NCBI GenBank assembly: GCA_013314735.1
Contig: JABUFD010000002.1
Location: 248,001-312,000 of the forward strand
Origin: Anaerolineae bacterium
GTDB lineage: Bacteria; Chloroflexota; Anaerolineae; Anaerolineales; Anaerolineaceae
Direction: 5' to 3'
Length of the DNA: 64,000 nt
Part shown: in pieces, positions 35,397 to 63,007 of the stretch
How positions within the stretch are numbered: the first letter of the stretch is position 1
How the letters are laid out: the number at the start of each line of letters is the position of its first letter
Program-made: the position numbers and the translations under genes
Notes under the pieces: generated by a model
Database searches by the model: none
Told to the model about the DNA's origin: nothing
What the model saw: the letters and a program-made list of their open reading frames with translations, nothing else

Positions 35397-35415
35397 GCAG
35401 TACTCTCGATTATTG

Positions 35416-35435
35416 TTGATTAATCGCTTAACCAA
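35416..35435. promoter_or_regulatory. LacI-type operator of GH172 operon
   Basis: TTGATTAATCGCTTAACCAA is a 20-bp imperfect palindrome centred on CG, with 8 of 10 base pairs symmetric. It begins 4 bp downstream of the -10 box and covers the expected transcription start of the fusion regulator gene. A second GATTAATCG copy lies at 35451-35459, inside the promoter spacer. Confidence 0.65.
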
Positions 35436-35439
35436 TTCG

Positions 35440-35468
35440 ATCATACAGCAGATTAATCGTTATGTCAA
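35440..35468 (-). promoter_or_regulatory. Promoter of GH172/ABC/GH116 operon
   Basis: On the - strand TTGACA (35468-35463) and TATGAT (35445-35440) are separated by exactly 17 bp. The start codon of the LacI-HTH fusion lies about 44 bp downstream of the -10 box. Confidence 0.75.
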
Positions 35469-38491: not shown

Positions 38492-40003
38492 ATGCGAAGT
38501 GAAGTAATTGAACACAATCTGGGTTTGTCTCGCAGGATCCATACCTCGCTGGCAGAACTGCCGACCACTGTCCTGCGGCAGTCCCAATGGAAATTCCTGC
38601 GGATAGGATTGGTGGCCATGGATATTCTGATGATTTCCGTGGGATTCATGCTGGCGTATCTTGTTCGTTTCAACATGGATATTCCATTCTTCTATCCTCA
38701 TGCAGACAATGTAATGCTGGGCTTCTATTCGGTTGTGGCGGCACTGCTCCTGCCAGTGTGGATCCTGACTTTCCGCTTATATGGTTTGTATGCCGTGAAA
38801 GAAAATCTGTCACGGCGGCATATCTGCGCCAAACTTTTCAATGCCACCACCATTCCCATGTTTGTGGTGATCGTGGTGGATTTTTTCCTGCCCCGCTTCG
38901 TGATCGCCCGCGGTTGGTTGTTGTTGATGTGGGTTTTTGTGTATGGTTTCGCCGTTTTTGGACGTTTCCTCATGCGGCGGTTGGTTAGGCACCTGCGCAC
39001 AAAAGGTTATTTCCTGGTGCCGGCGATCATTGTGGGCGCGAATGAAGAATCCAAATTATTGGCCGGGCAATTCCTGGATGAGAGAGTTTCCGGGTTGTTG
39101 TTATGCGGTTTCATCTCTGATGAGGTTGCTTCCGGTACGCAGGTGATGGAGCACCTGAGAGTATTGGGTTCGTTATCCAACCTTGAGCACCTGGTACAGG
39201 AGATGAAAGCAGAAGAAGTGATCGTTACTTCCAGTGCGGTTTCCTCCCAGGATGTGCTGACCCTGTTTAAATTGTACGGGGTTTCGAATGAAGTCACACT
39301 GCGACTTTCATCCGGCTTGTACGAAATTATCACCACCGGTTTACAGATCCAGGAATTCGCTTCCGTACCGCTGGTCAAAGTGAGTGAATTCCGTTTATCC
39401 GGTATTGACCACTTCTTAAAATTTGCATTGGATTACTGTTTCTCAATCGCGGCGATGCTTGTTGTAATTCCCTTATGTATCGTTGTGGGTATATTGATCA
39501 AACTTGATTCGAAAGGTCCTGTCTTTCATCGACGGCGGGTGATGGGGGTGAAAGGCAAGGAGTTTGACGCTTTCAAATTCCGTACAATGGTTGTCAACGG
39601 TGATGAAGTGCTTGCTGCTTATCCGGAGCTGAAGAAAAAACTGGATGAAGAACATAAGCTAAAAGATGATCCTCGGGTTACGCGTATGGGACGCATCATA
39701 CGCAAGCTCAGCCTGGATGAATTCCCGCAATTCTTCAATGTGCTGCGAGGAGAGATGTCAGTCGTTGGCCCGCGGATGATTTCACCCTGTGAGATGCAGG
39801 AATACCGGAAAAACGGCATGAACCTGCTTACCGTCCGCCCGGGTATCACTGGTTTGTGGCAGGTGAGTGGCAGATCGGATGTGACCTACCAGGAACGGGT
39901 CCAGATGGATATGTACTACATACGCAATTGGAGCGTATGGATGGACATTAACCTGATTGTGAAAACGATCCCGGCGCTGATCAGCCGCCGCGGTGCGTAC
40001 TGA
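38492..40003 (+). CDS. Polyprenyl glycosylphosphotransferase
   Basis: Initiating enzyme of surface glycan synthesis, 503 residues, of the WbaP/CpsE type. It transfers a sugar-1-phosphate from a nucleotide sugar to undecaprenyl phosphate at the inner membrane. N-terminal helices occupy about residues 35-165, a Rossmann-like domain follows (FLVPAIIVGANEESKLLAGQ). After a further helix near 310-335 comes the catalytic bacterial sugar transferase domain, with FHRRRVMGVKGKEFDAFKFRTM, RKLSLDEFPQFFNVLRGEMS-VVGPRM and RPGITGLWQVSGRSD. GGGAG precedes the ATG. It is the first biosynthetic gene of the locus, 42 bp before the epimerase. The first sugar cannot be read from sequence. Confidence 0.95.
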   Translation: MRSEVIEHNLGLSRRIHTSLAELPTTVLRQSQWKFLRIGLVAMDILMISVGFMLAYLVRFNMDIPFFYPHADNVMLGFYSVVAALLLPVWILTFRLYGLYAVKENLSRRHICAKLFNATTIPMFVVIVVDFFLPRFVIARGWLLLMWVFVYGFAVFGRFLMRRLVRHLRTKGYFLVPAIIVGANEESKLLAGQFLDERVSGLLLCGFISDEVASGTQVMEHLRVLGSLSNLEHLVQEMKAEEVIVTSSAVSSQDVLTLFKLYGVSNEVTLRLSSGLYEIITTGLQIQEFASVPLVKVSEFRLSGIDHFLKFALDYCFSIAAMLVVIPLCIVVGILIKLDSKGPVFHRRRVMGVKGKEFDAFKFRTMVVNGDEVLAAYPELKKKLDEEHKLKDDPRVTRMGRIIRKLSLDEFPQFFNVLRGEMSVVGPRMISPCEMQEYRKNGMNLLTVRPGITGLWQVSGRSDVTYQERVQMDMYYIRNWSVWMDINLIVKTIPALISRRGAY

Positions 40004-40045: not shown

Positions 40046-40978
40046 TTGAAAATTCTTGTCACGGGAGGAGCGGGTTTCATCGCTTCGCATGTAGTAGACC
40101 TATATCTTGCCAGGGGGCATGAGGTTGTGATCATTGATGACCTTTCAACAGGCCGGTTATCCAATGTGAATCCGTCTGCGAAACTGATCAGGATGGATAT
40201 TCGCAGCCCTCAACTCGCAGAGGTTTTTACCCGTGAACATCCCGATGTGGTCAATCACCATGCAGCGCAGATGGATGTGCGCCGGTCGGTGGCAGATCCG
40301 TTTTTTGATGCTGATGTGAATATCCTTGGTTCATTGAACCTGATCGAAAACGCAAGCAAGCATTCCGTCCAACATTTCGTTTACATCAGTTCCGGCGGAG
40401 CCGCATACGGGGAACCCCAATACCTGCCGTGTGATGAGAACCATCCGATTAATCCAATTTGCCCATACGGTGTCAGTAAACACACCGTCGAGCATTACCT
40501 GTACCTGTTCCATATCAATTATGGCCTGAACTACACCGTGCTGCGATATCCCAATGTGTTTGGTCCACGGCAGGACCCACATGGTGAAGCCGGTGTAGTT
40601 GCGATCTTCACCGGGCGGATGCTGCGCGGTGAACCGGTGCGTATCCACGGTGATGGGGAGCAGGTACGTGATTTTGTGCATGTCAGCGATTGTGCCGCTG
40701 CAAATTTGCTGGCAGTTGAGGTGCCGCATGATAGTGGAATCTATAACCTGGGTTCCGGGCGGGGAACTTCGGTAAACCAGGTCTTCGACATGATCCGGGA
40801 AGCCACCGGGTATGATCAGGCACCAATCCATGAGCCGGCGAAATTAGGTGAAACCCGGACGATTTACCTGGATGCCAGAAAAGCCCAAGCCGAATTTGGC
40901 TGGCGCCCGCAGGTGACTATGATGGAAGGGATTCGTGGTGTCGTGCAATATTTCCATGAAAAGGAGCTAACGAAGTGA
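40046..40978 (+). CDS. NAD-dependent sugar epimerase (GalE-like)
   Basis: Extended SDR of 310 residues, UDP-glucose 4-epimerase-like, that interconverts nucleotide sugars for the glycan. It has the Rossmann motif [14 protein letters not shown], catalytic Tyr and Lys in [12 protein letters not shown], and the substrate segment [20 protein letters not shown]. The start is TTG with a strong AAAGGAGG 9 nt upstream. It overlaps the following kinase gene by GTGA, so the two are translationally coupled. The exact nucleotide sugar is unknown. Confidence 0.93.
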
Positions 40979-41964
40979 TTATCGTGCAGGCTCCCCTGCG
41001 CATCAGCTTGTTCGGCGGTGGGACCGACTTTCCGGACTTTTACCACCAGGAAGGCGGTTGCGTACTTTCCACTGCCATTGATAAGTACATCTTCGTGGTT
41101 ATCAAACAGCGTTATGACGATATGCTGCGGATCGGATACACAAAAACCGAACTGGTGGAACAGGTGGGCCAGGTGGAGCATGAACTGATCCGGCACGCTT
41201 TGCTGAGGACCGGGATTCACAAAGGTGTGGAAATCACCACCATGGGGGATATTCCGGCCGGTTCAGGGTTGGGTTCATCCAGCGCGGTGACGGTAGGTTC
41301 GCTGCATGCGATGTATTCGTATTTGAATGAATCGGTGACTGCATCGCGGCTGGCGGAGGAAGCGTGTCATATTGAGATTGATGAACTAAAGAAGCCCATC
41401 GGGGTACAGGATCAATACATCTCAGCTTTTGGTGATTTGCGTTTCATCGAATTTCACCCGGACGGCAGGATTGAAGTAAAACGTGTCGAGATGGATCCGG
41501 CCATTAAACGGTTATTGAATGAAAATTTGCTGATCTTTTTCACAGGATTGACGCGCCAGGCCAGCACAATACTGGAGGAACAGCAGCACAATATCGCTCT
41601 ACATATGTGTGTGCTGCGTGAAATGAAAGAAATTACCCGGACAGCCTACCAGGAACTTATTACGGGGAATATCGATGCGTTGGGCCAATTGTTACATGAA
41701 AGCTGGCAACTGAAAAAACAACTGGCCAGCCGCATCAACAATGGGTTTATTGAAGAAGCTTACCAGGCAGCCCTGGGTGCCGGAGCGATCGGGGGCAAAA
41801 TCACCGGTGCAGGTGGTGGGGGGTTCCTGTTATTGTATTGTCCGTATTCCAGGCGGGCGGCGGTGCGCAGTGCGCTGCACAAACTGAAGGAACTGCCCAT
41901 CCAATTGGAACCGGATGGCAGCAAAGTCATATTCAATTACCAGCATTCTTCATTGATGTATTGA
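40975..41964 (+). CDS. GHMP kinase (heptose-7-P kinase HddA-like)
   Basis: GHMP-family sugar kinase of 329 residues. The N-terminal [18 protein letters not shown], the phosphate loop [15 protein letters not shown] and the C-terminal [16 protein letters not shown] match D-glycero-D-manno-heptose-7-phosphate kinases and L-fucokinase-like enzymes. HddA makes the alpha-1,7-bisphosphate used for GDP-heptose. The GmhB-type phosphatase directly downstream (convergent, 18 bp away) supports this reading. GmhA and HddC partners are not in the window. The GTG start overlaps the epimerase stop. Confidence 0.9.
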
Positions 41965-41982: not shown

Positions 41983-42537
41983 TTATACGTGCAGCACAGA
42001 TATATAATCAAATGCTTCGGCGAGGGAATCGAAGACAACCAGCGGCTGGATCTGGAGGGCCTCCGGAAGGACTTCCTGCGTTGCCCCTCGTCCGGTACGG
42101 ATAAGCACCGATTCCATAACACCGGCTGCGCGCCCTGCGACGATATCGCTGAGGGCATCACCAACCAGGTAGGAGCGCCGGAGATCCAGTTCCAGTGCGC
42201 TGGCAGCTTGCATGATCAGACCAGGCTGCGGCTTGCGACAATCACAGTAGTCATCAGGGGTGTGGGGACACATGAAAACGGCATCAATCCTGCCGCCCGC
42301 CTCTGTGATACAGGTCAAGACATATTCATTGATCAATTCACCCTGGGTCAATGAGATCAAGCCGCGGCCGATGACAGACTGGTTGGTGATTACGACGATT
42401 TTGAACGGAGAACAAGCCATAGCACGCAGTGCAGACAGCGCGCCGGGAATAAAAATGACATCCGCACATGAACGTATGTAATTTTCCCGATTTTCAATGA
42501 TGACCCCATCACGGTCCAGAAAAATGGCAGGTTTCAT
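41983..42537 (-). CDS. gmhB: D-glycero-D-manno-heptose bisphosphate phosphatase
   Basis: HAD-family histidinol-phosphatase/GmhB protein of 184 residues. It removes the 7-phosphate from heptose-1,7-bisphosphate. The nucleophile motif is FLDRDGVI, Thr/Ser motif II is VITNQS, and the zinc loop [14 protein letters not shown] holds Cys, His, Cys and Cys. Motif III/IV is [10 protein letters not shown]. It is the only - strand gene inside the polysaccharide locus. The ATG at 42537 begins the fold directly and has no ribosome-binding site; a TATAAT lies just 6 nt before it, suggesting a leaderless mRNA. Together with the HddA-like kinase it points to a heptose in the glycan. Confidence 0.92.
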
Positions 42538-42543
42538 ACATTG

Positions 42544-42549
42544 ATTATA
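42544..42549 (-). promoter_or_regulatory. -10 box abutting gmhB start (leaderless)
   Basis: Consensus TATAAT on the - strand ends 6 nt before the gmhB ATG, so transcription would begin at or next to the start codon. The -35 region is poor. Confidence 0.5.
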
Positions 42550-42647
42550 GCCACCCGTGCGACCATCCGGTACAGCCAAATGTAGAAAATCTCCAGGATT
42601 TGTTCCTTTGTACTGCTCAATCCAGAAAGAAAGGATTTGATATCCCT

Positions 42648-43394
42648 GTGAAAGCCATTCATCACCAATCTAGCCGACAACAGCCGGGCCTTGGCTTATA
42701 TGTGCGCCGCCAGGCAGATGGGTGGATACGTTACCTGTGGGAACAGGCATTCTTTCTGTTACTGGGATGGATTCCTACCGTGGCTGGGATCGGAATCCGC
42801 AGCCTGCTGTACCGGGTGATCTTAAAAATGGACGGATGGGCTGCGATTGAGGATGATGTGCGTTTACGATTTGCCAATCACATTCGCCTTGGCCATGGGG
42901 TGTACCTGGATCATGGAACCTACCTGCATGCCTGTCCGGGCGGGATTGTGATTGGACGGAATACCATCATCATGCATGGCGCGGTGCTGCATGTGTATAA
43001 CTTCCGTGAATTGCCGCATGCCGGCATCCATATCGGGTGCGACAGCCTGGTGGGAGAGTATACAGTCATCCGCGGACAGGGAGGGGTTGCGATTGGAGAC
43101 CGGGTGTACACCTCACCCTTCACGCAGATCCTGGCGGTTAACCATGTTTTTGATGATCCCGCGCGTCCGTTTATCGAACAAGGGATCACGGCGGAAGGGA
43201 TTGTGATTGAGGATGATGTGTGGATTGGCGCCGGTGCCATCATCACGGACGGCGTCACGGTTGGAAAAGGGGCTGTGGTGGCTGCCGGTGCTGTGGTTAC
43301 CGGTGATGTGGCGGCTCATACCGTGGTGGCGGGCATTCCAGCCCGGGTCATCCGGCAAATCAAGAACAGTACCTCAGCGGATGGTGAACAATGA
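42648..43394 (+). CDS. Hexapeptide-repeat acetyltransferase
   Basis: Left-handed beta-helix acyltransferase (WcaF/CatB/NodL-like), about 248 residues, that would O- or N-acetylate a sugar of the glycan using acetyl-CoA. Hexapeptide turns run from about residue 85 to 235: [50 protein letters not shown] and [26 protein letters not shown] holds the likely catalytic His, and the VAGIPARVI end is typical. I prefer the GTG at 42648, with AAGGA 12 nt upstream; a frame from TTG 42600 is also open. It follows gmhB divergently. Confidence 0.88.
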
Positions 43395-43422: not shown

Positions 43423-44628
43423 ATGACCATGTTATCGATTGTGATTCCTGCTTACAACGAGGAAAACGGCATCCAGGCCATTATGGAGCGGGTGCTGCAA
43501 ACCCGTGATAGCCTGAATGCAGCTGGGGTGACTGAATTGGAACTGCTCGTGGTTAATGACGGTTCCAAAGACGCCACCCTGCACAAGGCGGATGAACTGG
43601 CGGTGCAAAATGAATGTGTGCGCATTATTAACCACCCGCATAACCGCGGGTACGGGGCGGCATTGAAAACTGGCTTTAGCCAGGCGCGGGGGCAGCTGGT
43701 TGGTTTTTTGGATGCGGATGGGACATATCCGCCGGAATATTTTCCACAATTGTGTACCGCTGCCATCAATGGGGCAGACCTGGTGATCGGAACACGGATG
43801 ACCGGGGAGGAATCACAAATGCCGTTGACACGGCGACTGGGGAATGTGATTTTTGCAACCTTGCTCAACCTGCTGGGCTGGCAGCATGTAACGGACTGCG
43901 CCAGCGGTATGCGCGTGTTTCGCAAAGAGGTCTTGCATCTGTTATCTCCCCTGCCAGATGGCCTGAACCTGACCCCTGTGATGAGCACCCGTGCAGTGCA
44001 TGAAGGCGTCAGGATGGTGGAAGTTCCCATACCGTACAGCGAGCGGGTTGGGCGGTCGAAGCTATGTGTCATCCGCGATGGGCAGTTGTTCCTGACCTCG
44101 ATGGTATGGACGGTTTTGTGTTACAACCCGGTGCGTATCCTGGGCATGGCGGGATTGGTTGGCGTCGGGATCGCCTTTCTGGCCGGTGTTGCCCTGGTGA
44201 TTGCGCGCCTGGCCGGTGTCACGACCCTGACCCCTTGGGCTGTGTTTGGACTTTTCCTGGGATTGGTATCTGGCGTGGCAGGGATCAGCCTGTTTGCGCT
44301 GGGGGCAACTTTTAACTACCTGGTTTCTCTTTTTTATAAGGAACCCGTGCACCAGGGGTTATTTGGCAGGCGTATTTTTAAGAAACCGCTGGAATATCAA
44401 TTTGGCTGGATGGGACTGGGCGGCTTTGCTACGGGATTTCTGGTCATGGTTGTATCCCTGGCTTTGAGTTTTACAGGCTGGGATGTTGCCCGTTTATGGC
44501 TTTACCTGCTGGGTGGGGCATTGATAAACCTGGTGGGCATTCAACTGGTCATCTACTGGTTGTTGATTACAGTTCTGGATCAACTCCGCCAACGCGAGGT
44601 GGTGGTGGCTGCTGACCTGGCAGGTTAA
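43423..44628 (+). CDS. Membrane-associated GT2 glycosyltransferase
   Basis: Family 2 glycosyltransferase of 401 residues, dolichyl-phosphate-mannose-synthase-like. The GT-A domain has IVIPAYNEENGI, VNDGSKDAT, the metal site FLDADGTYPPEYF and DLVIGTRM. About four C-terminal membrane helices follow (from about residue 230). It probably transfers a sugar to polyprenyl phosphate or to the growing lipid-linked glycan on the cytoplasmic face. The ATG at 43423 follows a strong AGGAGG; the frame is open further upstream but overlaps the acetyltransferase. It overlaps the next gene as TAATG. Confidence 0.93.
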   Translation: MTMLSIVIPAYNEENGIQAIMERVLQTRDSLNAAGVTELELLVVNDGSKDATLHKADELAVQNECVRIINHPHNRGYGAALKTGFSQARGQLVGFLDADGTYPPEYFPQLCTAAINGADLVIGTRMTGEESQMPLTRRLGNVIFATLLNLLGWQHVTDCASGMRVFRKEVLHLLSPLPDGLNLTPVMSTRAVHEGVRMVEVPIPYSERVGRSKLCVIRDGQLFLTSMVWTVLCYNPVRILGMAGLVGVGIAFLAGVALVIARLAGVTTLTPWAVFGLFLGLVSGVAGISLFALGATFNYLVSLFYKEPVHQGLFGRRIFKKPLEYQFGWMGLGGFATGFLVMVVSLALSFTGWDVARLWLYLLGGALINLVGIQLVIYWLLITVLDQLRQREVVVAADLAG

Positions 44629-46325
44629 TGCCGGATGCGGTGTCGACGATTGTTTGCTATTTGCGAGATGCTAGTGTGAGAAACCATTCTGATCAGGCAA
44701 GAAAAACATATCGAAACCTGGGAACAGGAAAACTTCCGGTGGTAGGTTCTGCCAACTTTCCATCCGCTGATGCAGTTGTAAGAGAGTCAATTTCGCGTCA
44801 ACAGCGACCTGCGGACGCGGTTGATATCATGCTGGTTAACCCACCTTCTCCCGATGGGGGCATCTGGATCCGCTCCCAGCATCGGGTGGGGCGGCGCTCC
44901 CGCGAGAACATGGTTTGGCCACAGGTATCGCTGGCGCAAATGGCTGCGATTTTGAAGGATCAGTACCGTGTCAAGGTGGTTGATTGTATTGGATCGAAGG
45001 TGGGGTGGAAGGAATTTACTGACCTGTTGGACCATTACCAACCGCGGTACTATTTGACCCAGGTCACTGCGCCAACGCTGGAGAACGATATGTACGGTGC
45101 TTTCCTGGCGAAGAATCGTGGAGCCGTTACAATGGCCTTTGGTACCCATGTGACACCGATACCGATGGAAACCATGCGCGGGTTTATCACCCTGGATTAT
45201 GTGCTGTTCGGGGAGCCAGACCTGACCATCCGGGATGTATTGGACCATCTGGATGGACATATCGAAAATAGGCCGCCCGGGATTCAAGCCATGTTTGATA
45301 AAGAGCCTGATTATTCATTGGCGATGGTTGATGGAAGACTGGACCTTCATAGGATCCGGGGGATTGCCTGGCGGGATGGGAGTCAGATCGTGAAAAATCC
45401 ACCGCGGCCTTTCATTGCTGATCTGGACGACCTTCCCATCCCGGCGCATGAATTGCTTCCACTGCACAGCTACAAAATCCCGATGATCAAAGGGCCTTTT
45501 ACGTTCATTGTTACCGAACGGGGATGTCCTGCTGGCTGCAACTTTTGCATCAAGCATGTCAGTTACCAGGGTACGGTCCGTTTGCGATCCGCTGAAAAAA
45601 TCATTGACGAGATTATCGTGCTGGAGCAATTGGGTATTCACAATATCCACATGTACGCCGATCTGTTCACAGTCAGCCGAGACCAGGTGATCGCTTTATG
45701 CCGCGGAATCCTGGCGCATGGGTTGAAGATCAGGTGGACTTGCAACAGCCGGGTGGATTATGTGGACCAGGAAATGCTGGAATTGATGGCAAAATCTGGC
45801 TGCTGGTACATATCCTGGGGCATCGAAAGTGGGAGTGAGGAAATTTTACGAGGTGTCCACAAAGGCATCACATTGGACCGGGTGCGAGAAGCTTTGACGC
45901 TTTCAAGGCAGGCCGGGATTCATAATTGGGGGTATTTTATTATCGGGCTGCCAGGTGAAACAGAAGAAACCATCCGTCAGACGATTGATTTTGCCAAAAG
46001 CCTGCCGCTCGATATCGCCTTGTTCCATATTGCCGCACCACACCCGGGTACGCCATTATTCTTTGATGTGGTGAAGCATGGTTGGTTCCGGCAGGGAACG
46101 CGGTGGGAACAAGTTGATATGGACAAGGAAACCGTCCTGGATTATCCAGATCTATCGGCGGATCAGTTGATGTATTGGCAGAAGCGTGCCTGGCGTGAAT
46201 GGGCGCTGCGGCCCGGGCCAGCTCTCACGTACCTAAAAATGTTGCTGGCAGACCCATCCACCTTCATCAATGCGCTGAATATTGGCATCCAGCATCTTGC
46301 CTGGCAGATCGGGCGTAAATCATAA
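44628..46325 (+). CDS. B12-binding-domain-type radical SAM protein
   Basis: Radical SAM enzyme of 565 residues. The N-terminal part (about 65-190) resembles a cobalamin-binding Rossmann domain (IMLVNPPSPDGG, VSLAQMAAILKDQYRVKVVDC) but lacks the DxHxxG histidine, so base-on B12 binding is doubtful. The 4Fe-4S site is CPAGCNFC (CxxxCxxC) near residues 303-310, and the SPASM-less barrel continues with SWGIESGSEEILRGVHKG and YFIIGLPGETEETIRQTI. Close relatives in glycan loci include methylases and rearrangement enzymes. The start overlaps the GT2 stop. Probable role: radical-based modification of a sugar or of a carrier-bound unit in the polysaccharide locus. Confidence 0.9.
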   Translation: MPDAVSTIVCYLRDASVRNHSDQARKTYRNLGTGKLPVVGSANFPSADAVVRESISRQQRPADAVDIMLVNPPSPDGGIWIRSQHRVGRRSRENMVWPQVSLAQMAAILKDQYRVKVVDCIGSKVGWKEFTDLLDHYQPRYYLTQVTAPTLENDMYGAFLAKNRGAVTMAFGTHVTPIPMETMRGFITLDYVLFGEPDLTIRDVLDHLDGHIENRPPGIQAMFDKEPDYSLAMVDGRLDLHRIRGIAWRDGSQIVKNPPRPFIADLDDLPIPAHELLPLHSYKIPMIKGPFTFIVTERGCPAGCNFCIKHVSYQGTVRLRSAEKIIDEIIVLEQLGIHNIHMYADLFTVSRDQVIALCRGILAHGLKIRWTCNSRVDYVDQEMLELMAKSGCWYISWGIESGSEEILRGVHKGITLDRVREALTLSRQAGIHNWGYFIIGLPGETEETIRQTIDFAKSLPLDIALFHIAAPHPGTPLFFDVVKHGWFRQGTRWEQVDMDKETVLDYPDLSADQLMYWQKRAWREWALRPGPALTYLKMLLADPSTFINALNIGIQHLAWQIGRKS

Positions 46326-46371
46326 CGCCAGGGAATGCACCGGGTTAGCTGGCAATCTACCATCCTTTTAA

Positions 46372-47292
46372 ATGAAGAAGGTACCTACCAGAAGAATGGA
46401 AGCGGTAACGGTTTTTGATAATTTACTGACAGCACTGAAGGCTGAATGGCATGGATTGCCGGATAAGCCTGACGAAACCCCACTCTCGACCCTACGGGCG
46501 TTGTGGTATTTTGTCGTTGGTCTTTCCCTGGACGGGGAAGATGATGTTGCGGAATGGCCGGTACTTTCTGCAGATGCTGTTGGGCGACTGCGCCAACTGG
46601 TGGCTCAACGGATCAGCGGGGTACCGCTTGCCTACCTGACAGGCAGCCAGACCTATATGGGGCTGGCGTTGAAAAGCTCTCCCGCTGCGATGATCCCGCG
46701 TAAAGAAACGGAACTGCTGGGATATGCTGCCCTGGAGAGAGCACGTGAACTGGCCGCAGTGCGCGGAAACATTTATGGTTTGGACCTTTGCACTGGATCA
46801 GGGAATGTTGTTCTGGCGCTGGCGCATTTCCTGCCAGCATACCAGGGAATGGCTTCTGATATATCTTCAGAATCGGTTCAGTTGGCAACTGACAATGCAA
46901 GGAGTCTAGGGCTGGATACCCGGGTCACATTCCAGGTAGGGGATTTGTTTCAACCTTTTTCCAGTCCGCAATATGCACAGGTTTTTGATCTGATCACATG
47001 CAATCCGCCTTACATTGCCACAGCCAACACGGAAAAAATGGCAGCAGAAATCGCCTTGTTTGAACCACGGGCAGCATTCGATGGGGGAGCATTCGGTGTC
47101 AACTTGATCATGCGGTTGGTGCGGGAAGCCCCTGCGTTCCTCAAGCCGGCGTCATGGTTGATGCTGGAAGTTGGGTTAGGACAGGGGGAGGCGGTGGTTC
47201 GTTTGTTTGAGAAGACAGGCCAGTACCAGGTTGTCGGCAACTGCAAGGATCCGGATGAGAATATCCGTGTTGTTTTCGGACAAGTACCCTGA
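46372..47292 (+). CDS. PrmC/HemK-like methyltransferase
   Basis: SAM-dependent methyltransferase of 306 residues. Motif I is LDLCTGSGNVVLALA and the NPPY motif is in CNPPYIATANTEKM, as in HemK/PrmC N-methyltransferases of amide groups. An N-terminal helical domain (about 1-120) has the PrmC-like LRQLVAQRISGVPLAYLTGSQTYMG. The start is unclear: 46372 has no ribosome-binding site, and an in-frame ATG at 46396 is also possible. The true prmC usually lies by prfA, which is not here. N-methylation of an amide made by the neighbouring ligase/carrier/AsnB module is a possible role. Confidence 0.85.
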   Translation: MKKVPTRRMEAVTVFDNLLTALKAEWHGLPDKPDETPLSTLRALWYFVVGLSLDGEDDVAEWPVLSADAVGRLRQLVAQRISGVPLAYLTGSQTYMGLALKSSPAAMIPRKETELLGYAALERARELAAVRGNIYGLDLCTGSGNVVLALAHFLPAYQGMASDISSESVQLATDNARSLGLDTRVTFQVGDLFQPFSSPQYAQVFDLITCNPPYIATANTEKMAAEIALFEPRAAFDGGAFGVNLIMRLVREAPAFLKPASWLMLEVGLGQGEAVVRLFEKTGQYQVVGNCKDPDENIRVVFGQVP

Positions 47293-47323
47293 TATATTTT
47301 CCGATTCATTTAAGAGGTGACGA

Positions 47324-48859
47324 TTGCTGGTTCACGAATTTTTGGAACGCACTACAGCCTTAACACCAGAAAAAATTGCCCTGGTTTGTGGGCAGCGACG
47401 ATTCACATATCAACAGATCAACCGCTATGCCAACCAGCTGGCAGCTTTTTTGCAGGATCAAGGCTTGCAGCGGGGAGATCGGGTGGCGGTGTACCTGCCA
47501 AATTGCGAAGAGGCGGTAATCAGCATCTTCGGCATACTCAAAGCAGGCGGCGTCTTTGTGGTGTTGAACCACACCACAAAGGTTGATAAACTCATAACGA
47601 TTTTGAATGATTGCGGGGCTGCGGCAATTGTTACCACCTGGCAAGATGTGGATTTTCTCCACAACCTGCGGCAGTCAGTGCCTTCATTGCGGGTGGTTCT
47701 TTACAAGGATTCACCGAAGCAATCGGAGAATCTCCCCTCAGTAGATGGCGTTTATGGCTATTTTGCCGCACTCGAGCGCCAGTGCGATTCGAATCTGCCT
47801 CATGTTAATATTGATCTCGACCTGGCCTGCCTCGTGTATACCTCCGGCAGTACGGGTGAATCCAAGGGCGTGATGGAAGATCATAGCAATGTTGACTTCG
47901 CCACGGATGCCATTATTTCCTACCTCGACAACCGCGCGGATGATATCGTGCTGAACTGCCTGCCATTGTCCTTTGATTATGGTTTGTATCAACTGCTGAT
48001 GGTGTTCAAATTCGGGGGCACCCTGGTTCTGGAAAAAGGGTTTGCTTTCCCGGCGGTGATCCTGAAACAAATCCAAGACGAGCACGTAACCGGTTTTCCG
48101 GGTGTCCCCACCATTTTTTCCATTCTGATGAATACCGATTTATCCTCGTATGACCTTTCCAGCCTGCGTTATATAACCAACACCGCTGCCGCCCTTCCGG
48201 TCAGCCATATCCGCCAACTGCGAGCAACTTTCCCTCATGTGCAGATGTTCTCGATGTACGGCCTTACCGAAACCAAGCGTACCTTGTATATGCCGCCGGC
48301 AATCCTGGATCAACATCCGGGTTCTGTTGGGATTGCAATTCCTGGGACAGAGGTGTGGCTGGAAGATGAAACGGGCAACACGCTTGGAGCGGGAGAAATC
48401 GGCGAGCTGGTAGTACGCGGCAGGCATGTAATGCGCGGTTATTGGAACGCGCCGGAAATGACCGCACAGCGTTTCCGCCCCGGCAGGCTGCCTCACGAGT
48501 GGGTGTGTTACACGGGCGACCTGTTTCGTCGGGATGAAGAAGGGTACTACACCTTTATAGCACGCAAGGATGACATCATCAAAACCCGCGGTGAAAAAGT
48601 TTCCCCGGTGGAATTGGAGCGGGTGTTGTATGGGATGGCTGGTGTCCTTCGGGTGGCGGTGATCGGGGTACCGGATGCTGTACTGGGTGAGGCAATCAAA
48701 GTCTACGTCGTCAGTGGCGATCCGGCGCTAACCGAAAATGATGTGTTGTTGTACTGCCGAACCCATGTCGAGGACTACATGGTACCCAAAACGATTGTCT
48801 TTGCCGATGATCTGCCCCTGACAGAATCCGGCAAGGTCCTGAAGAGTGCGCTGCGCTGA
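47324..48859 (+). CDS. AMP-forming acyl/aminoacyl ligase
   Basis: ANL-superfamily adenylating enzyme of 511 residues. It has LVYTSGSTGESKGVMEDH (ATP loop), MYGLTETKR, YTGDLFRRDEEGYYTF, the hinge region RKDDIIKTRGEKVSP and the C-terminal catalytic Lys in SGKVLKSALR. It activates an acid as acyl-AMP and loads it, most likely on the carrier protein encoded 52 bp downstream. The architecture resembles exosortase-locus-associated ligases and DltA. The start is TTG with AAGAGGTGA upstream. The acid is unknown; the residues after the A3 loop do not allow a safe guess. Confidence 0.93.
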   Translation: MLVHEFLERTTALTPEKIALVCGQRRFTYQQINRYANQLAAFLQDQGLQRGDRVAVYLPNCEEAVISIFGILKAGGVFVVLNHTTKVDKLITILNDCGAAAIVTTWQDVDFLHNLRQSVPSLRVVLYKDSPKQSENLPSVDGVYGYFAALERQCDSNLPHVNIDLDLACLVYTSGSTGESKGVMEDHSNVDFATDAIISYLDNRADDIVLNCLPLSFDYGLYQLLMVFKFGGTLVLEKGFAFPAVILKQIQDEHVTGFPGVPTIFSILMNTDLSSYDLSSLRYITNTAAALPVSHIRQLRATFPHVQMFSMYGLTETKRTLYMPPAILDQHPGSVGIAIPGTEVWLEDETGNTLGAGEIGELVVRGRHVMRGYWNAPEMTAQRFRPGRLPHEWVCYTGDLFRRDEEGYYTFIARKDDIIKTRGEKVSPVELERVLYGMAGVLRVAVIGVPDAVLGEAIKVYVVSGDPALTENDVLLYCRTHVEDYMVPKTIVFADDLPLTESGKVLKSALR

Positions 48860-48911
48860 CCGGTGGTTTGCCTGCACGCTGGTAGTTTGAAGTTTGATTG
48901 TAGGAGGTAAC

Positions 48912-49184
48912 ATGTCAATGGCCGTTGAAGATTTGATCCGTAATTATATAGCACATAACATATTGTTCAGCAACAAGGGCTATCCCTACCCTGATGACAC
49001 ATCGTTCCTGGACAATGGGATTGTGGATTCCATCAATGTCATGGAAATTGTCATGTTTGTTGAGGAGAATTTTCATTTCAAGGTCCGCGACGAAGAAATC
49101 ATACCGGATAATTTTGATTCTGTGGCAGCTCTGACGGCTTATATTCAACGAAAGCGAACGCCAGCTGTCCAACCCGGAGCATAA
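48912..49184 (+). CDS. Acyl carrier protein
   Basis: Carrier protein of 90 residues. A phosphopantetheine attaches at the Ser of IVDSINVMEIVMFVEE, near residue 41, in the DS motif. The four-helix pattern is complete, with VRDEEIIPDNFDSVAALTAYI. TAGGAGG lies just upstream of the ATG at 48912, and a second in-frame ATG at 48918 has better spacing. It follows the AMP-forming ligase and precedes three glycosyltransferases, so it probably carries an acyl or aminoacyl group to be placed on the glycan. It is not in a fatty-acid synthesis context. Confidence 0.92.
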   Translation: MSMAVEDLIRNYIAHNILFSNKGYPYPDDTSFLDNGIVDSINVMEIVMFVEENFHFKVRDEEIIPDNFDSVAALTAYIQRKRTPAVQPGA

Positions 49185-49207
49185 GTACGTCGGTTTGAGA
49201 ATCTGTG

Positions 49208-50455
49208 ATGAGAATCCTGTTTCTTACCCAAATTTTGCCATATCCGCCAGATGCCGGGCCGAAATTTAAGACATGGCAGGTACTGCGATACCTGGTCAGT
49301 CGGGGGCATCAGGTAACCCTGGTGTCGATGGTGCGTGCTGAAGAGCTGCCTTATTGCCGTACCGTGCAGCAATTGGTGTCAGATTTCCATGCAGTGTCGC
49401 TTCACCGCTCCAGGATCAACGATGGTTTCTACTTGCTCCGATCTTTGTTCACCCGGCATCCGTTTTTGATCGAGCGGGATAATATTCGGAAGATGCGACA
49501 ATTGGTACGCCAACTGGTTATGGAAAATGATTATGATGCCATCCATGCGGATCAGCTTACAATGACGCAATTCGTTTTACCGTTTGCCGGCAGGGATCAG
49601 CAGAAAGCGCCATTGCTGTTGTTTGATGCGCACAATGCCACCTGGAAAATCCTTGAGCGGTATGCTGATGAGAGCAGTGGTATGAAGCGATGGGTCATGC
49701 AGGTGGAAGCGGACCGTTTGCGTCGTTATGAGGCAGATATAGTCTCACGATTTGATTTCGTATTCACCGTATCAGCGATGGATCGGGCGGCCCTGATGGC
49801 GGCCGTCACGTGCTCTGGTCTTTCTGAATCCGATTGGGAAAAAAAGTTCAGAGTCATTCCCATCACGGTGGATACGCAGTCGATCCAGCCCGTGGATCGG
49901 GCCGTAAAATCTGGCAATATCTTCACGATGGGAACTTTGCATTATCCGCCCAATGCCGACGGTATTCGCTGGTTTATCAACGAGATATTTCCGCTGGTCC
50001 GCAATGCGGTACCAGGTGTGACATTGACCATCGTCGGAAAAAATCCGCCGGCAGATTTCGTCAATCTCCAGAAAACAATGCCTGAAGTGTTCCATGTACC
50101 GGGATATGTACCCGACCTGACACCCTGGTTCGCACAGGCTGCGGTCATGATTGTACCGGTGCGGATTGGCGGTGGGATGCGTGTGCGGATATTGGAGGCT
50201 TTTGCGCGGGGGATGCCTGTAGTCACAACCACCGTTGGCCTGGAGGGGATTGAGGCCATATCCGGTGAGCATGTGCTGGTTGCCGACGATCCTGGTAATT
50301 TTGCTGGTGCTGTGATCGACTTGCTGCGGAACGAGCAACTGCAACAAACACTTGGGAACAACGGTCGAAAACTGGTGGAACAGCATTATGACCAGCAAAT
50401 CGTTTTAAGGAAATTGGATGAACTGTATCCGCCAGTCGATCAGGTGAAAGAATGA
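49208..50455 (+). CDS. GT4-type glycosyltransferase
   Basis: GT-B fold glycosyltransferase of 415 residues, of the GT4/stealth-like group that TIGR03087-type exosortase loci also carry. The N-terminal ILFLTQILPYPPDAGPKFKTWQVLRYL is acceptor-binding. The C-terminal donor domain has FTMGTLHYPPNADGIRWFINEIFP, LTIVGKNPP, the VHVPGYVPDL-type segment and MRVRILEAFARGMPVV. GTG at 49205 and ATG at 49208 are adjacent starts. It overlaps the next gene by ATGA. Cytoplasmic or membrane-peripheral; the sugar is unknown. Confidence 0.92.
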   Translation: MRILFLTQILPYPPDAGPKFKTWQVLRYLVSRGHQVTLVSMVRAEELPYCRTVQQLVSDFHAVSLHRSRINDGFYLLRSLFTRHPFLIERDNIRKMRQLVRQLVMENDYDAIHADQLTMTQFVLPFAGRDQQKAPLLLFDAHNATWKILERYADESSGMKRWVMQVEADRLRRYEADIVSRFDFVFTVSAMDRAALMAAVTCSGLSESDWEKKFRVIPITVDTQSIQPVDRAVKSGNIFTMGTLHYPPNADGIRWFINEIFPLVRNAVPGVTLTIVGKNPPADFVNLQKTMPEVFHVPGYVPDLTPWFAQAAVMIVPVRIGGGMRVRILEAFARGMPVVTTTVGLEGIEAISGEHVLVADDPGNFAGAVIDLLRNEQLQQTLGNNGRKLVEQHYDQQIVLRKLDELYPPVDQVKE

Positions 50456-51807
50456 AAACCATATTTTGCTGGCTTAAATCACCATCGCACTTTCTGATCC
50501 TGATTCTGGCCTTCTCCGTGGTGGCGCGCCTGGCTGGAGCGGTGTATATGGGAGATCGCGTTGAAGAGCTGCCTGGCACCTTTGACCAGATTTCCTATCA
50601 TCTACTGGCGCAGCGTGTTTTAGGCGGGTATGGCTTTACCTTTGGGCAGACATGGTGGCCGATGACAGGCGCAGGAGAACCCACCGCGCATTGGAGTTTT
50701 CTATATACCTTATACCTGGCAGCTGTGTATTCGATCTTTGGGGTGCATCCCCTGGTGGCCCGGATCATGCAGGCAATCCTGTTTGGTATCCTGCAGCCGT
50801 ACCTGACTTTTCGAATTGGGCGCCGACTTTATGGGCCGGCTGCCGGATTGATCGGCGCGCTGCTAGCGGCCGGTTATGCGTATTTCATTTACTACGGCGG
50901 GACGCTGATGACAGAACCGTTCTACATTACTACGATCCTCCTGGCAATGGATCTGTGCCTGGACCTTGTGATGGATACAAAGCGAGGCAACAAACCAATC
51001 AATTGGGGAATCCTGGGATTGGTGTTGGGGATTACTGTCCTGTTACGGCAGGTGTTCTTATTGATGATTCCGTTCATTCTGGTTTGGGTGGCATGGGCAA
51101 TTCATTACCGTGGCCGAAGGCTTTCATTGCGGCTGTTGGTTCTGCCAATCCTGGTGGTGATTGCCATGATCCTGCCATTTACCATCTTCAATACCTACCG
51201 GTTTGGACATCCTGTCCTGCTCAACACCAATGCCGGGTATGCATTTTTCTGGGGGAACCATCCCTCTTACGGCACCAAATTCCAATCGATTCTGCCCACT
51301 GAAACCTATCAGCAGATGATCCCGGAAGCATTAAGAAGCCTCGATGAAGCCGAGTTAGATTCGGTATTGATGAAGCTTGCCCTGCAAAATGTTGTCGATG
51401 ACCCGGGGCGCTATGTTTTACTGTCGTTCAGCCGAGTTAAGGACTTTTTTATGTTCTGGCCGTCGCCAGATTCAGTGATGATCAGTAATATTTCCCGCGT
51501 GGTCAGCTTTGGCATTCTGTGGCCGTTCATGCTGGCGGGTTTGGTTCTCTCGCTGTGGCAACTTCGGGGTAAATTTGAAGAGGCAATGGCTGCAGGGAGC
51601 ATTCTTCTGATCCTGTTTATCGTTGTTTACAGCGGGATTCATTTAATGACCTGGGCATTGGTACGTTACCGTTTACCGGTTGATGCGGTAGCACTGGTCT
51701 TTGCCGCGATGTTGATTGCGAAAATTGATGCACGCTTTTTCCACCTGGGGAAGCGATGGTTTGGTATCCCAGAGTCGGCAGCTCCCAGGGAGATGTTTGT
51801 GAAATGA
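50452..51807 (+). CDS. GT-C membrane glycosyltransferase (ArnT/PMT-like)
   Basis: Polytopic membrane protein of 451 residues with about 10-11 helices, resembling GT39/GT83 polyprenyl-phosphate-sugar-dependent transferases. The first periplasmic loop has Asp in LPGTFDQISYHLLAQRVL, the usual catalytic position, followed by EPTAHWSFLYTLYLAAVYSIFG and YIYYGG-like segments. It would add a sugar from a polyprenyl-phosphate donor on the outer face, consistent with the GT2 gene upstream making such donors. Both ends overlap neighbours by ATGA, giving tight coupling with the two GT4 genes. Confidence 0.88.
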   Translation: MKTIFCWLKSPSHFLILILAFSVVARLAGAVYMGDRVEELPGTFDQISYHLLAQRVLGGYGFTFGQTWWPMTGAGEPTAHWSFLYTLYLAAVYSIFGVHPLVARIMQAILFGILQPYLTFRIGRRLYGPAAGLIGALLAAGYAYFIYYGGTLMTEPFYITTILLAMDLCLDLVMDTKRGNKPINWGILGLVLGITVLLRQVFLLMIPFILVWVAWAIHYRGRRLSLRLLVLPILVVIAMILPFTIFNTYRFGHPVLLNTNAGYAFFWGNHPSYGTKFQSILPTETYQQMIPEALRSLDEAELDSVLMKLALQNVVDDPGRYVLLSFSRVKDFFMFWPSPDSVMISNISRVVSFGILWPFMLAGLVLSLWQLRGKFEEAMAAGSILLILFIVVYSGIHLMTWALVRYRLPVDAVALVFAAMLIAKIDARFFHLGKRWFGIPESAAPREMFVK

Positions 51808-53057
51808 AAGTCTTGTTTATTGTTCCGTATGTTCCCAACTTGATTCGCGTTCGGCCATATAACCTGATCCGGCATCTCGCACTGCTGGGTCATTCGGTCA
51901 GTGTCGCAGCGATTGTTTCCGACGCAACAGAGAACGAGGACATATTGCGGCTGAAGGGTATTTGTGGTGATGTGTTCACGACAACCATTCCTGCCTGGAA
52001 GTCCATGATTCAAAGCCTGCTTGCCTTTCCGCAACATATCCCGATGCAAGCGCGGTATTCCTGGGACCCCGCGTTTGCCCGTCAGATCCGGTCTGTGGTG
52101 GAAACCAACCTGGCAGAGAGCGCCTTCGACGTCATCCATGTAGAACATGTGCGGGGGATGGAATACGGCTTGCACTTGCTGAAACCGGGCAGGGGAGAGA
52201 GCAAACGGATTGTTCAACCTGTCGTGTGGGATAGTGTAGACTGCATCTCATCGCTGATGCAACAAACCGCCCGATATGGGAGCAGCTTAAAAAGCCGGGT
52301 GACAGGGGCGTTGGAATACCGCAATACTGCTCGTTATGAAGCAATGGGGGTCCGTTCTTTTGACCGTGTACTGGTGACTTCCCCAATGGACCGCAAAGAT
52401 CTGGCGCGGACCACAGGAGGCGATTCGCGTTCAGTCAAAATCGACGTACTGCAGAACGGTGTCGACCTCAAATACTTCCTGCCTGGCGAGGGGAAACGTC
52501 ACAAGGAAACCATCGTTGTCAGTGGTAAAATGAGTTACCACGCCAATATCGCCATGGTCAAACACCTGGTTGAAGTCATAATGCCCCAGATTTGGGCGCA
52601 AAAACCGGAGGCGAAGCTGCAAATAGTGGGAAAAGATCCACCGCGTTTGATCCGCGCCATGGGAGAGCAACCGCGGGTCACGGTGACCGGAACGGTCAGT
52701 GACATTCGGCCGTATTTGCAAAAGGCAACCCTCGCAGTGGTTCCGATCACGTATGGCACCGGGATCCAAAACAAGATCCTCGAAGCGATGGCATGCGCTA
52801 CGCCCGTGGTGGTTTCTTCCCATGCGGCGTCATCACTTCAGGCAGTGGAAGGACATGAGGTGTTGGTGGCTGATACCGCCAGTGATTTTGCGTCTGCTGT
52901 GCTGGCTTTGCTTGGTGACAGCGGCAGGCGAACCTCATTGGGGACTGCAGGCAGATCGTATGTGGAACGGAACCATGATTGGTTCCGGGTGGCTGCCCAA
53001 TTGGTTGATATTTATGATATGGCGATTCAGGAGCGCCGTTGGGCATCGAGGCGGTGA
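51804..53057 (+). CDS. GT4-type glycosyltransferase
   Basis: GT-B glycosyltransferase of 417 residues related to the gene at 49208-50455, with VLFIVPYVPNLIRVRPYNLIRHL at the N-terminus. The C-terminal half has VVSGKMSYHANIAMVKHLVEVI, LQIVGKDPP, VTVTGTVSDIRPYLQKATLAVVP and NKILEAMACATPVVVS. The two are likely paralogues with different acceptors. I set the start at 51804, the ATGA overlap with the membrane glycosyltransferase; the fold begins at once. It ends 11 bp before asnB. Confidence 0.92.
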   Translation: MKVLFIVPYVPNLIRVRPYNLIRHLALLGHSVSVAAIVSDATENEDILRLKGICGDVFTTTIPAWKSMIQSLLAFPQHIPMQARYSWDPAFARQIRSVVETNLAESAFDVIHVEHVRGMEYGLHLLKPGRGESKRIVQPVVWDSVDCISSLMQQTARYGSSLKSRVTGALEYRNTARYEAMGVRSFDRVLVTSPMDRKDLARTTGGDSRSVKIDVLQNGVDLKYFLPGEGKRHKETIVVSGKMSYHANIAMVKHLVEVIMPQIWAQKPEAKLQIVGKDPPRLIRAMGEQPRVTVTGTVSDIRPYLQKATLAVVPITYGTGIQNKILEAMACATPVVVSSHAASSLQAVEGHEVLVADTASDFASAVLALLGDSGRRTSLGTAGRSYVERNHDWFRVAAQLVDIYDMAIQERRWASRR

Positions 53058-55051: not shown

Positions 55052-55082
55052 TTATGGCAGTAAGAACCCGGAGTTTAGAGAA

Positions 55083-56063
55083 ATGAAACCCATCGAGCAC
55101 CCACCTTTTTCAAGGCAATCGCTTCAACTCAATGCCCCGAAAGAAATTGATCGCATTGTGGAGGCTATCCATGGGGCGGTTCATCATCACCTGCACCGCC
55201 AGGGGGCTGTGGTTGGCATCAGCGGGGGTATTGATTCCTCAGTGGTGCTTGCGCTTTGTGTAAAAGCACTGGGTGCGGAGCATGTGGTTGGGGTGATGCT
55301 GCCGGAAAAAGAATCCAGCCCTCAAAGCACGCTGCTGGCCGAAGAGCTGGCAGGGCATTATCATGTTTCTACGATGACGATTGATATCACGCCAGCGCTG
55401 GAAGGATTTGGCTGTTATGAAAAGCGAAACGAAGCGATCTGCCGCATTGTCCCGCAGTTTGAGCAGGGTTGGGGTGTTAAAATTGTGCTGCCCAATGACT
55501 TGCTGACCCAGGGTTCGTTGAATGTCTTTCAACTGGTAGTGACAACACCAGAGGGGCAAATCCTGCGTCAGCGACTAACACCGCATGAGTATTTTCAGAT
55601 TGTGGCTTCTTCAAATTTCAAACAACGGGTGCGCACAACCCATCTATACTACCAGGCTGAATTGCGAAATTATGCTGTGATCGGTACGCCAAATAAGAAC
55701 GAACATGACCTGGGGTTCTTTGTCAAAGGCGGGGACGGCTTGTATGATTTCGCGCCAATCAGACATTTGTTTAAGACGCAGGTTTTTCAGTTGGCTGAAA
55801 CATTGGGGATTCCTGACAGCATTCGCACCCGCCCACCGATCACAGATACCTACCCGGGCGGTGGAACCCAGGAGGAATTTTTCTTCCGGCTTCCTTTCGA
55901 AACCTTGGATACCATCTGGTACGGCTATGAGAACAATGTACCGCTGGAAGAGATCACTGCTGCCCTGAATTTATCACCGGAGCAAGTATTACGGGTGATC
56001 AAAGACATCAACAGCAAACAATCCGCCACCATGTATCTTCGTGAATCACCGCATGGCATGTAA
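55083..56063 (+). CDS. NadE-like ATP-pyrophosphatase amide ligase
   Basis: NAD synthase-family protein of 326 residues. The PP-loop is VGISGGIDSSVVLAL, the acceptor segment is VIGTPNKNEHDLGFFVKGGDG, and DTYPGGGTQEEFFFRLPFETLDTIWYG replaces the usual NadE segment. The usual ammonia-dependent NadE is about 275 residues; here there is extra length and no nitrilase glutaminase domain. It follows asnB by 31 bp. GGAG stands 9 nt before the ATG at 55083; upstream in-frame starts at 55029 and 55044 overlap asnB or lack a site. It may be a housekeeping NadE, but position and variant motif suggest a paralogue that amidates a locus-specific carboxylate. Confidence 0.8.
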   Translation: MKPIEHPPFSRQSLQLNAPKEIDRIVEAIHGAVHHHLHRQGAVVGISGGIDSSVVLALCVKALGAEHVVGVMLPEKESSPQSTLLAEELAGHYHVSTMTIDITPALEGFGCYEKRNEAICRIVPQFEQGWGVKIVLPNDLLTQGSLNVFQLVVTTPEGQILRQRLTPHEYFQIVASSNFKQRVRTTHLYYQAELRNYAVIGTPNKNEHDLGFFVKGGDGLYDFAPIRHLFKTQVFQLAETLGIPDSIRTRPPITDTYPGGGTQEEFFFRLPFETLDTIWYGYENNVPLEEITAALNLSPEQVLRVIKDINSKQSATMYLRESPHGM

Positions 56064-56097
56064 CTTATTTTCATCACACATTAGAGAATCGCAGCGT

Positions 56098-62997: not shown

Positions 62998-63007
62998 GGA
63001 ATGGTTG

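Follow-up and report, generated by a model that had tools for sequence, protein, structure and literature searches.

In three-component and Arn-type systems (GtrABC; ArnC/ArnE/ArnF/ArnT; the Citrobacter pentofuranose system) the charging of polyprenyl phosphate by a family 2 glycosyltransferase (GT2) is followed by a flippase and a GT-C glycosyltransferase, and auxiliary enzymes (DprE1/E2, ORF13) may alter the lipid-linked sugar (PMC11127046). In the hopanoid cyclitol ether pathway (HpnI-HpnK-HpnJ) a glycosyltransferase attaches a sugar to the lipid and a radical S-adenosylmethionine (SAM) enzyme converts it later, HpnJ acting on lipid-bound glucosamine (PMC12583986); another radical SAM enzyme, the diol dehydratase AprD4 (6fd2), acts on an aminosugar (PMC5461906). 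In Sinorhizobium meliloti the gene smb20650 is cotranscribed with that of the carrier SMb20651, and expression of SMb20650, which does not replace FadD, gave acylated SMb20651 in E. coli (PMC7232532, citing a 2009 paper on this carrier); the function of this carrier was still unknown in a 2017 and a 2025 paper. In the Wbp/Vim system of Porphyromonas, a surface sugar is made with the help of WbpS, an AsnB-type amidotransferase (PMC7468200). Here we compare with these systems a glycan locus of an Anaerolineae bacterium (Chloroflexota; assembly GCA_013314735.1), in which a radical SAM gene is followed by genes for a PrmC-like methyltransferase, an adenylate-forming ligase, a carrier protein, an AsnB-type amidotransferase and a NadE-like amide ligase. 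The locus lies in a stretch of 64,000 nucleotides (the window; positions 248,001 to 312,000 of contig JABUFD010000002.1) within a 4.09 Mb draft genome that is 95.5% complete. The genes at issue, with the module to which we assign them, are:

42600-43394, + strand: hexapeptide-repeat acyltransferase (Hexapep, 55.6 bits), module A
43423-44628 (open frame from 43207), + strand: AglJ/ArnC-like polyprenyl-phosphate GT2 (Glycos_transf_2, 121.3 bits), module A
44628-46325, + strand: radical SAM enzyme of 565 residues with an N-terminal Rossmann-like domain (Pfam Radical_SAM, 92.7 bits), module A
46372-47292, + strand: PrmC-like methyltransferase of 306 residues (methyltransferase families, best Pfam score 47.7 bits; TIGR03534, 202.3 bits against a cut-off of 199.1)
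47324-48859, + strand: SMb20650-like adenylate-forming ligase of type I, 511 residues, TTG start (AMP-binding, 298.5 bits), module B
48912-49184 (open frame 48894-49184), + strand: carrier protein (PP-binding, 23.6 bits, cut-off 20.8), module B
53069-55051, + strand: AsnB-type glutamine-dependent amidotransferase (TIGR01536, 524.8 bits; Cys2 and SGGLDSS present), module B
55029-56063, + strand: NadE-like amide ligase of the NF002048 subfamily (419.7 bits, cut-off 313), module B

We conclude with high confidence that the radical SAM unit and the ligase/carrier/AsnB/NadE-like cassette are two separate modules standing side by side. The original prediction, made from the letters of the window, had suggested one pathway here. 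Its observation of the genes was right: radical SAM enzyme, PrmC-like methyltransferase, ligase and carrier are encoded by four consecutive intact frames with matching Pfam/NCBIfam families, and the AsnB and NadE-like genes do follow the carrier on the same strand, downstream of three glycosyltransferase genes. One base is common to the GT2 stop and the radical SAM start, and the gaps from the radical SAM gene to the PrmC-like, ligase and carrier genes are 46, 31 and 52 bases. It was the module boundary that was drawn wrongly. When loci are compared across relatives, as had been proposed, the ligase/carrier/AsnB/NadE-like cassette is kept together, and the radical SAM and PrmC-like genes fall outside it.

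Relatives of the radical SAM protein were gathered by scanning 84,980 species genomes with two peptide patterns, and the best 80 of 239 loci were analyzed; the counts thus describe the closest relatives, and the locus sets of this study overlap (Bellilinea appears as L040, L118 and L168), hence they are not independent. Among these 80 loci a GT2 is present in 75 (including locus L165, where it is only 35% identical to that of the window), a hexapeptide protein in 68 and PrmC in none. The GT2 gene adjoins the radical SAM gene in 68 of the 77 loci with enough upstream DNA, and the full three-gene arrangement is seen in 59 of the 72 testable ones. The hexapeptide transferase and GT2 genes just upstream of 44628 belong with the radical SAM gene as a three-gene unit, and the radical SAM gene keeps these partners with or without the cassette, strict matches to ligase plus AsnB being found in only 11 of the 80 loci. 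A search of 298 genomes of the class, with presence called at E <=1e-75 for the radical SAM protein and the GT2 and at E <=1e-50 for the NadE-like protein and the lists combined by hand, gave the radical SAM protein in 103 genomes (204 at E <=1e-30) and the GT2 in 100; 88 genomes have both and 183 neither, in counts uncorrected for relatedness. The NadE-like protein was found in 22 of the 298, six of them having no radical SAM match that passes the cut-off, and in one genome of the same family (G271) the radical SAM gene and the NadE-like cassette lie on different contigs. These observations speak strongly against placing the radical SAM enzyme in an acyl pathway.

The three-gene unit also occurs in records labelled as cyanobacteria (L191, L196, L207, L210) and acidobacteria (L206, L211, L213, L214), with one Kiritimatiellae-labelled and one Desulfobacterales-labelled record among the 80 loci; the records from outside Chloroflexota are metagenome bins, individual labels of which may be wrong. 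In records labelled for other phyla the radical SAM protein is 59-66% identical to that of the window, similar to the values inside Anaerolineae, and the cyanobacteria-labelled loci share little with the window beyond the unit itself. Chance is excluded as the origin of the genes because orthologues more than 55% identical are present in many genomes. Three named strains have the gene for the radical SAM protein, namely Longilinea arvoryzae KOME-1, Anaerolinea thermolimosa IMO-1 and Bellilinea caldifistulae GOMI-1, and a search of plasmids gave no relatives of the radical SAM protein at E <=1e-60.

As to the chemistry of module A, the radical SAM protein shares cysteines C300, C304 and C307 with every sequence in an alignment of 33. 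The NCBIfam profiles rank HpnJ first (TIGR03471, 223 bits against a cut-off of 577.6), followed by ApyD (155.2), MgmA (129.8), BchE (129.1) and AprD4 (NF033070, 127.2 against 500), all far below their cut-offs. AprD4 is the best solved structure by sequence (113.4 bits) and also the best match of the AlphaFold model (mean predicted local distance difference test score 81) in a fold search: its complex with paromamine (6fd2) superposes with Z 35.8 and a root mean square deviation of 2.6 over 420 aligned residues, covering both domains (model residues 63-533), with MgmA next at Z 28.3. Profile and structure comparisons thus each put a sugar enzyme first. Module A resembles the HpnI-HpnK-HpnJ pathway in its proposed lipid-attached sugar logic as well as in the top profile, but differs in the low score and in its partner genes; a hopanoid enzyme can be rejected, as the 95.5% complete genome has no hopene cyclase above cut-off, the one weak match reaching 20.4 of the 431.1 bits needed. 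From AprD4, its closest structural relative, the protein is set apart by an identity of 22-26% in the fold alignments and by the low profile score, and no constant AprD3-like partner was identified in the loci.

Module A can also be compared with the three-component and Arn-type systems. The best NCBIfam models of the GT2 are AglJ (105.6 bits, cut-off 325), a dolichyl-phosphate hexose transferase (102, cut-off 375) and ArnC (93.6, cut-off 529). A small membrane protein family occurs in eight of the 80 loci, and its best models, ArnF and ArnE in the four of eight copies tested, again stay below cut-off; in three of the cyanobacteria-labelled loci (L196, L207, L210) the distance from the radical SAM gene to the ArnE/F-like gene behind it is 113-185 bases, and a PMT_2 gene is present too in L207 and L210, which is the layout described for Arn and three-component systems (PMC11127046). 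The window too encodes a GT-C glycosyltransferase, a PMT_2 protein at 50452-51807. On this basis the GT2 would work in the cytoplasm and load a sugar onto polyprenyl phosphate, and the radical SAM enzyme would abstract a hydrogen from the lipid-linked sugar, leading to dehydration, epimerization, a ring change or C-methylation. The hexapeptide enzyme would probably acylate the same sugar. After transport to the outside by a flippase, the sugar would be added to the glycan by a GT-C enzyme, for which the PMT_2 protein is a candidate here. This is the logic of the described systems with an extra radical step, the radical SAM protein taking the place of the auxiliary enzyme; unlike in those systems, that auxiliary enzyme would be a radical SAM protein, and an ArnE/F-like flippase is present in only the eight loci, with none found in the window. 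We put the action of module A on a lipid-linked sugar forward tentatively, as a proposal a little short of even odds. More tentative still is the wider suggestion of an unnamed pathway type, widespread in Chloroflexota and, going by the labels, found in Acidobacteria and Cyanobacteria too, whose radical SAM enzyme alters a sugar still attached to polyprenyl phosphate, ahead of its flipping and transfer to a surface polysaccharide; it might be regarded as a four-component version of the three-component systems, whose radical chemistry could give sugars new to surface glycans. Among the papers listed by literature searches, none described, in its title or abstract opening, radical SAM chemistry at a polysaccharide locus.

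Turning to module B, the carrier has a DSI phosphopantetheine site, and its start is more likely the ATG at 48912, which is preceded by GGAGG. The NadE-like protein is a paralog of the separate NadE of the genome, which reaches NF010587 (330.2 against 255). In most of the loci fetched its gene stands beside AsnB, joined by the ligase and carrier genes where the contig is long enough; open reading frames were called by simple rules, so that carrier counts are low estimates. Among 30 AsnB loci, 15 have an Acyl_transf_3 gene and seven a DUF362 gene. Two ligase types can be told apart in 27 aligned sequences, some contigs occurring twice: 17 have FDYG, as in the window, nine have YCFG, and L170 is an outlier; in one cassette (L115:5391-8732) two ligases of different type flank a single carrier gene. 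The FDYG aspartate aligns with those of FDGS and FDIS in the adenylation domains of gramicidin synthetase. In amino-acid-activating domains this aspartate binds the amino group, and its position makes an amino acid a lead for the ligase substrate, and no more than a lead.

The same four families, AsnB, carrier, ligase and NadE-like protein, make up the S. meliloti operon, with identities to the window proteins of 47%, 37%, 50% and 45%, respectively. Unlike that operon, the window cassette stands in a glycan locus, has Acyl_transf_3 and DUF362 genes downstream, and has three glycosyltransferase genes between carrier and AsnB. The S. meliloti genes were found on pSymB in the order asnB, carrier, ligase, nadE, and very probably the ligase is SMb20650 and the carrier SMb20651. 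We identify them so because the pSymB carrier has the DST motif stated for SMb20651 (PMC12391972) and because the ligase follows the carrier (PMC7232532), the Rm1021 record itself being unannotated. The positive precedent for carrier loading is the reported acylation of SMb20651 by SMb20650 in vivo (PMC7232532), and the original prediction that ligase, carrier, AsnB and NadE-like enzyme belong together is borne out both by this precedent and by the conserved cassette of the relatives. Carrier loading and amidation are plausible by analogy: the ligase would adenylate a carboxylic acid and load the carrier, AsnB and the NadE-like enzyme would make amides, and transfer of the product to the glycan might be the task of the membrane acyltransferase. 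Among the papers listed by literature searches on the cassette, none described it.

A likeness to the XrtA/PEP-CTERM (exosortase) set, which had been noted for the ligase/carrier/AsnB trio, holds at the level of families, since the ligase, AsnB and two GT4 glycosyltransferases have XrtA-system models among their best matches. It does not extend to the system: all scores stay below cut-off (ligase, TIGR03098, 453.6 against 592.35; amidotransferase, TIGR03108, 441.8 against 816.9), and an exosortase system is rejected, as PF09721 has no match at E <=1 in the 95.5% complete genome. To our knowledge the NadE-like gene is not part of that set. With the Wbp/Vim system the locus shares a predicted AsnB-type amidation, which may likewise concern a surface sugar; no ligase or carrier is described in the available part of that source (PMC7468200).

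The best overall explanation, to which we give a probability of about 0.55, is that two independent tailoring modules adjoin in an exopolysaccharide-type locus; it builds on gene content, conservation, separability, families and folds, while all substrates and products and the sequence of the reactions are inferred. Several observations weigh against it. The two modules co-occur above expectation, the radical SAM gene being present in 16 of the 22 cassette genomes (uncorrected for relatedness), and for this reason a looser link of both through the same glycan is possible. The strict arrangement of module A is missing in 13 of the 72 testable loci, and 15 of 103 genomes with the radical SAM protein lack the GT2 and 12 of 100 the reverse, many being drafts. 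The NCBIfam models that name the GT2 and the flippase-like protein score below cut-off, and the ArnE/F-like profile found nothing in the window, GtrA and MATE flippase types lying outside that search. The likeness of the radical SAM protein does not fix its substrate, because AprD4 is fifth by profile, behind ApyD, an enzyme of ribosomally synthesized and post-translationally modified peptides, and because the lists below the best profile and structure include peptide and amino-acid enzymes. Finally, 19 Anaerolineae loci among the 30 AsnB loci were reached through NadE instead of the radical SAM gene; a further glycan gene of the window type appears in only 10 of these 19, and in nine the stretch examined has none, many contigs being short. 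Nor are glycan genes seen in the 9-12 kb around the cassette in S. meliloti, Shinella and Nitratireductor. The count of 10 in 19 holds down the odds that module B feeds the glycan of this locus, which we regard as an open bet leaning slightly to the negative side.

Among the alternatives, the one that survives best concerns the PrmC-like gene, which might simply encode an additional release-factor glutamine methyltransferase that has ended up here. The protein just reaches the PrmC cut-off and the gene is intact with its NPPY motif kept, so the protein may be functional. On the other hand, PrmC_N is matched only in part and below cut-off, the genome already has another PrmC gene adjoining prfA, no prfA was seen among the scanned neighbors of the window gene, and a tailoring role would suit a gene of a glycan operon equally well. 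We take this alternative to have somewhat less than an even chance. The PrmC-like step in the predicted acyl pathway finds no support: none of the 80 related radical SAM loci has the gene, and among 297 other genomes of the class 15 have a match at E <=1e-35, at 39-43% identity, with prfA nearby in seven and a ligase or carrier in none. The gene looks like a lineage-specific insertion with no close counterpart among those 297 genomes, and nothing links it to module A or B outside this genome.

The next alternative, a substantial one though we favor it less than a coin toss would, is that module B makes a free small molecule or a lipid amide and stands in glycan loci by chance or because its product is exported. 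A tblastn search of plasmids with the NadE-like protein gave 117 records, 76 of them from Sinorhizobium; on S. meliloti pSymB the operon lies beside minCDE, and in Shinella and Nitratireductor, which have the same gene order (Mesorhizobium has a different one), there are likewise no glycan genes in the stretches shown, the plasmid gene table being incomplete. Together with the nine Anaerolineae loci without a window-type glycan gene this speaks for a product other than a glycan; the Acyl_transf_3 gene in half of the AsnB loci speaks against it, as does Azospirillum thermophilum, where carrier, ligase, asnB and nadE genes are followed by a GNAT-type gene and stand behind glycosyltransferases and a polysaccharide deacetylase. 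In Shinella (L216:5141-6250) and Nitratireductor (L218:4098-5210) asnB is preceded by a gene of about 370 residues with no Pfam/NCBIfam match. Rahnella, Tritonibacter and Gemmobacter have a ligase 42-44% identical to that of S. meliloti beside a carrier. The genes nearby encode acyl-CoA dehydrogenases and 3-oxoacyl synthases, the annotation of the stretch shown lists neither AsnB nor NadE, and we set these cases aside as other pathways.

A less likely but still serious alternative makes the radical SAM enzyme a C-methyltransferase dependent on cobalamin, or has it act on a nucleotide sugar ahead of lipid loading, instead of remodelling a sugar that is already lipid-linked. Its N-terminal Rossmann-like domain superposes on cobalamin-type enzymes (MgmA, Z 28.3; OxsB, 26.8; TsrM, 26.4), and GenK and GenD1 provide examples of class B methylases that act on sugars (PMC5461906). 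Nevertheless, no B12-binding Pfam domain matches the protein at E <=0.001, and its constant partner is a GT2 of the polyprenyl-phosphate type. The best template, moreover, is the dehydratase AprD4, which is not known to use cobalamin. The weakest alternative, the one pathway of the original prediction, in which radical SAM enzyme, PrmC-like protein, ligase and carrier would modify and methylate a carrier-bound acyl group that AsnB amidates and that goes onto a surface sugar, is rejected as very improbable: adjacency on one strand, the Longilinea arvoryzae locus (L136) with its cassette directly behind the radical SAM gene, the 16 of 22 shared genomes and radical SAM enzymes with pantetheine-linked substrates in the fold list (CysS, TokK) favor it, but the 11 of 80 loci with strict ligase and AsnB, the separate contigs of G271, the six cassette genomes with no radical SAM match, the absence of PrmC from all 80 loci and the better fit of AprD4 (Z 35.8 against 26.7 for CysS and 21.1 for TokK) stand against it.

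The glycan-type locus that houses the two modules spans 38492 to beyond the end of the window at 64000. Its further genes, apart from an epimerase gene between the first two, are:

38492-40003, + strand: WcaJ/WbaP-type sugar-phosphate transferase (TIGR03025, 392.9 bits, reaching the cut-off of 295.55)
40975-41964, + strand: HddA-like GHMP sugar kinase (NF049969, 158.7 bits, below the cut-off of 600)
41983-42579, - strand: GmhB-like heptose bisphosphate phosphatase (NF006506, 175.3 bits, just below the cut-off of 178), followed by the hexapeptide transferase
49205-50455, + strand: GT4 glycosyltransferase, TIGR03087-like (below cut-off; Pfam/NCBIfam), directly after the carrier
50452-51807, + strand: PMT_2 (GT-C type) membrane glycosyltransferase (PMT_2, 38.1 bits, cut-off 26.1)
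51756-53057, + strand: second GT4 glycosyltransferase, TIGR03087-like (below cut-off; Pfam/NCBIfam), followed by AsnB
56041-58815, + strand: BNR-repeat protein (BNR models below cut-off), directly after the NadE-like gene
58875-60218, + strand: DUF362 protein (54.9 bits)
60303-60737, + strand: Acyl_transf_3 membrane acyltransferase, N-terminal piece (48.0 bits, cut-off 31)
60734-61414, + strand: Acyl_transf_3 membrane acyltransferase, C-terminal piece in another frame (43.8 bits, cut-off 31)
about 61480-62997: second BNR-repeat protein
63005-64000, + strand: Wzt-like ATPase of an ATP-binding cassette (ABC) exporter, running past the window end (ABC_tran, 81.4 bits)

The split of the Acyl_transf_3 gene over overlapping frames may reflect a sequencing error, a frameshift or a decayed gene; in a relative (L121) it is a single frame of 372 residues. 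A scan for promoters was at chance level (13 sites against 13.4 expected), and one for terminators found 20 sites where 14.5 were expected. Large proteins with BNR repeats are common in related loci, a similar protein (22-30% identity) being present in 41 of the 80 radical SAM loci. A carbamoyltransferase family (the copy at L193:14142-16004 was tested) occurs in six of the 80, at a median of about 4.2 kb from the radical SAM start, and in L137 (6487-7653) a SIS (GmhA-like) domain is fused to GAF domains inside a heptose-type gene block. A sulfotransferase-family gene lies a short way upstream of the glycan locus (35553-36413), and at 33804-35444 on the - strand a LacI-type DNA-binding domain is fused to an ADP-ribosylglycohydrolase domain, a pairing that struck us as unusual.

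For the conserved radical SAM unit the literature searches listed no description, and the cassette has a published but unexplained counterpart. For the orphan S. meliloti carrier SMb20651, module B supplies partners, namely AsnB, the NadE-like protein and an acyltransferase, and contexts that make its role testable. The presence of the radical SAM gene in the named strains of Longilinea, Anaerolinea and Bellilinea makes the proposal for module A testable too. If that proposal is true, radical enzymes of several phyla would help to build the surface polysaccharides of bacteria while the sugar is lipid-linked, and the radical step would be a possible source of unusual sugars.

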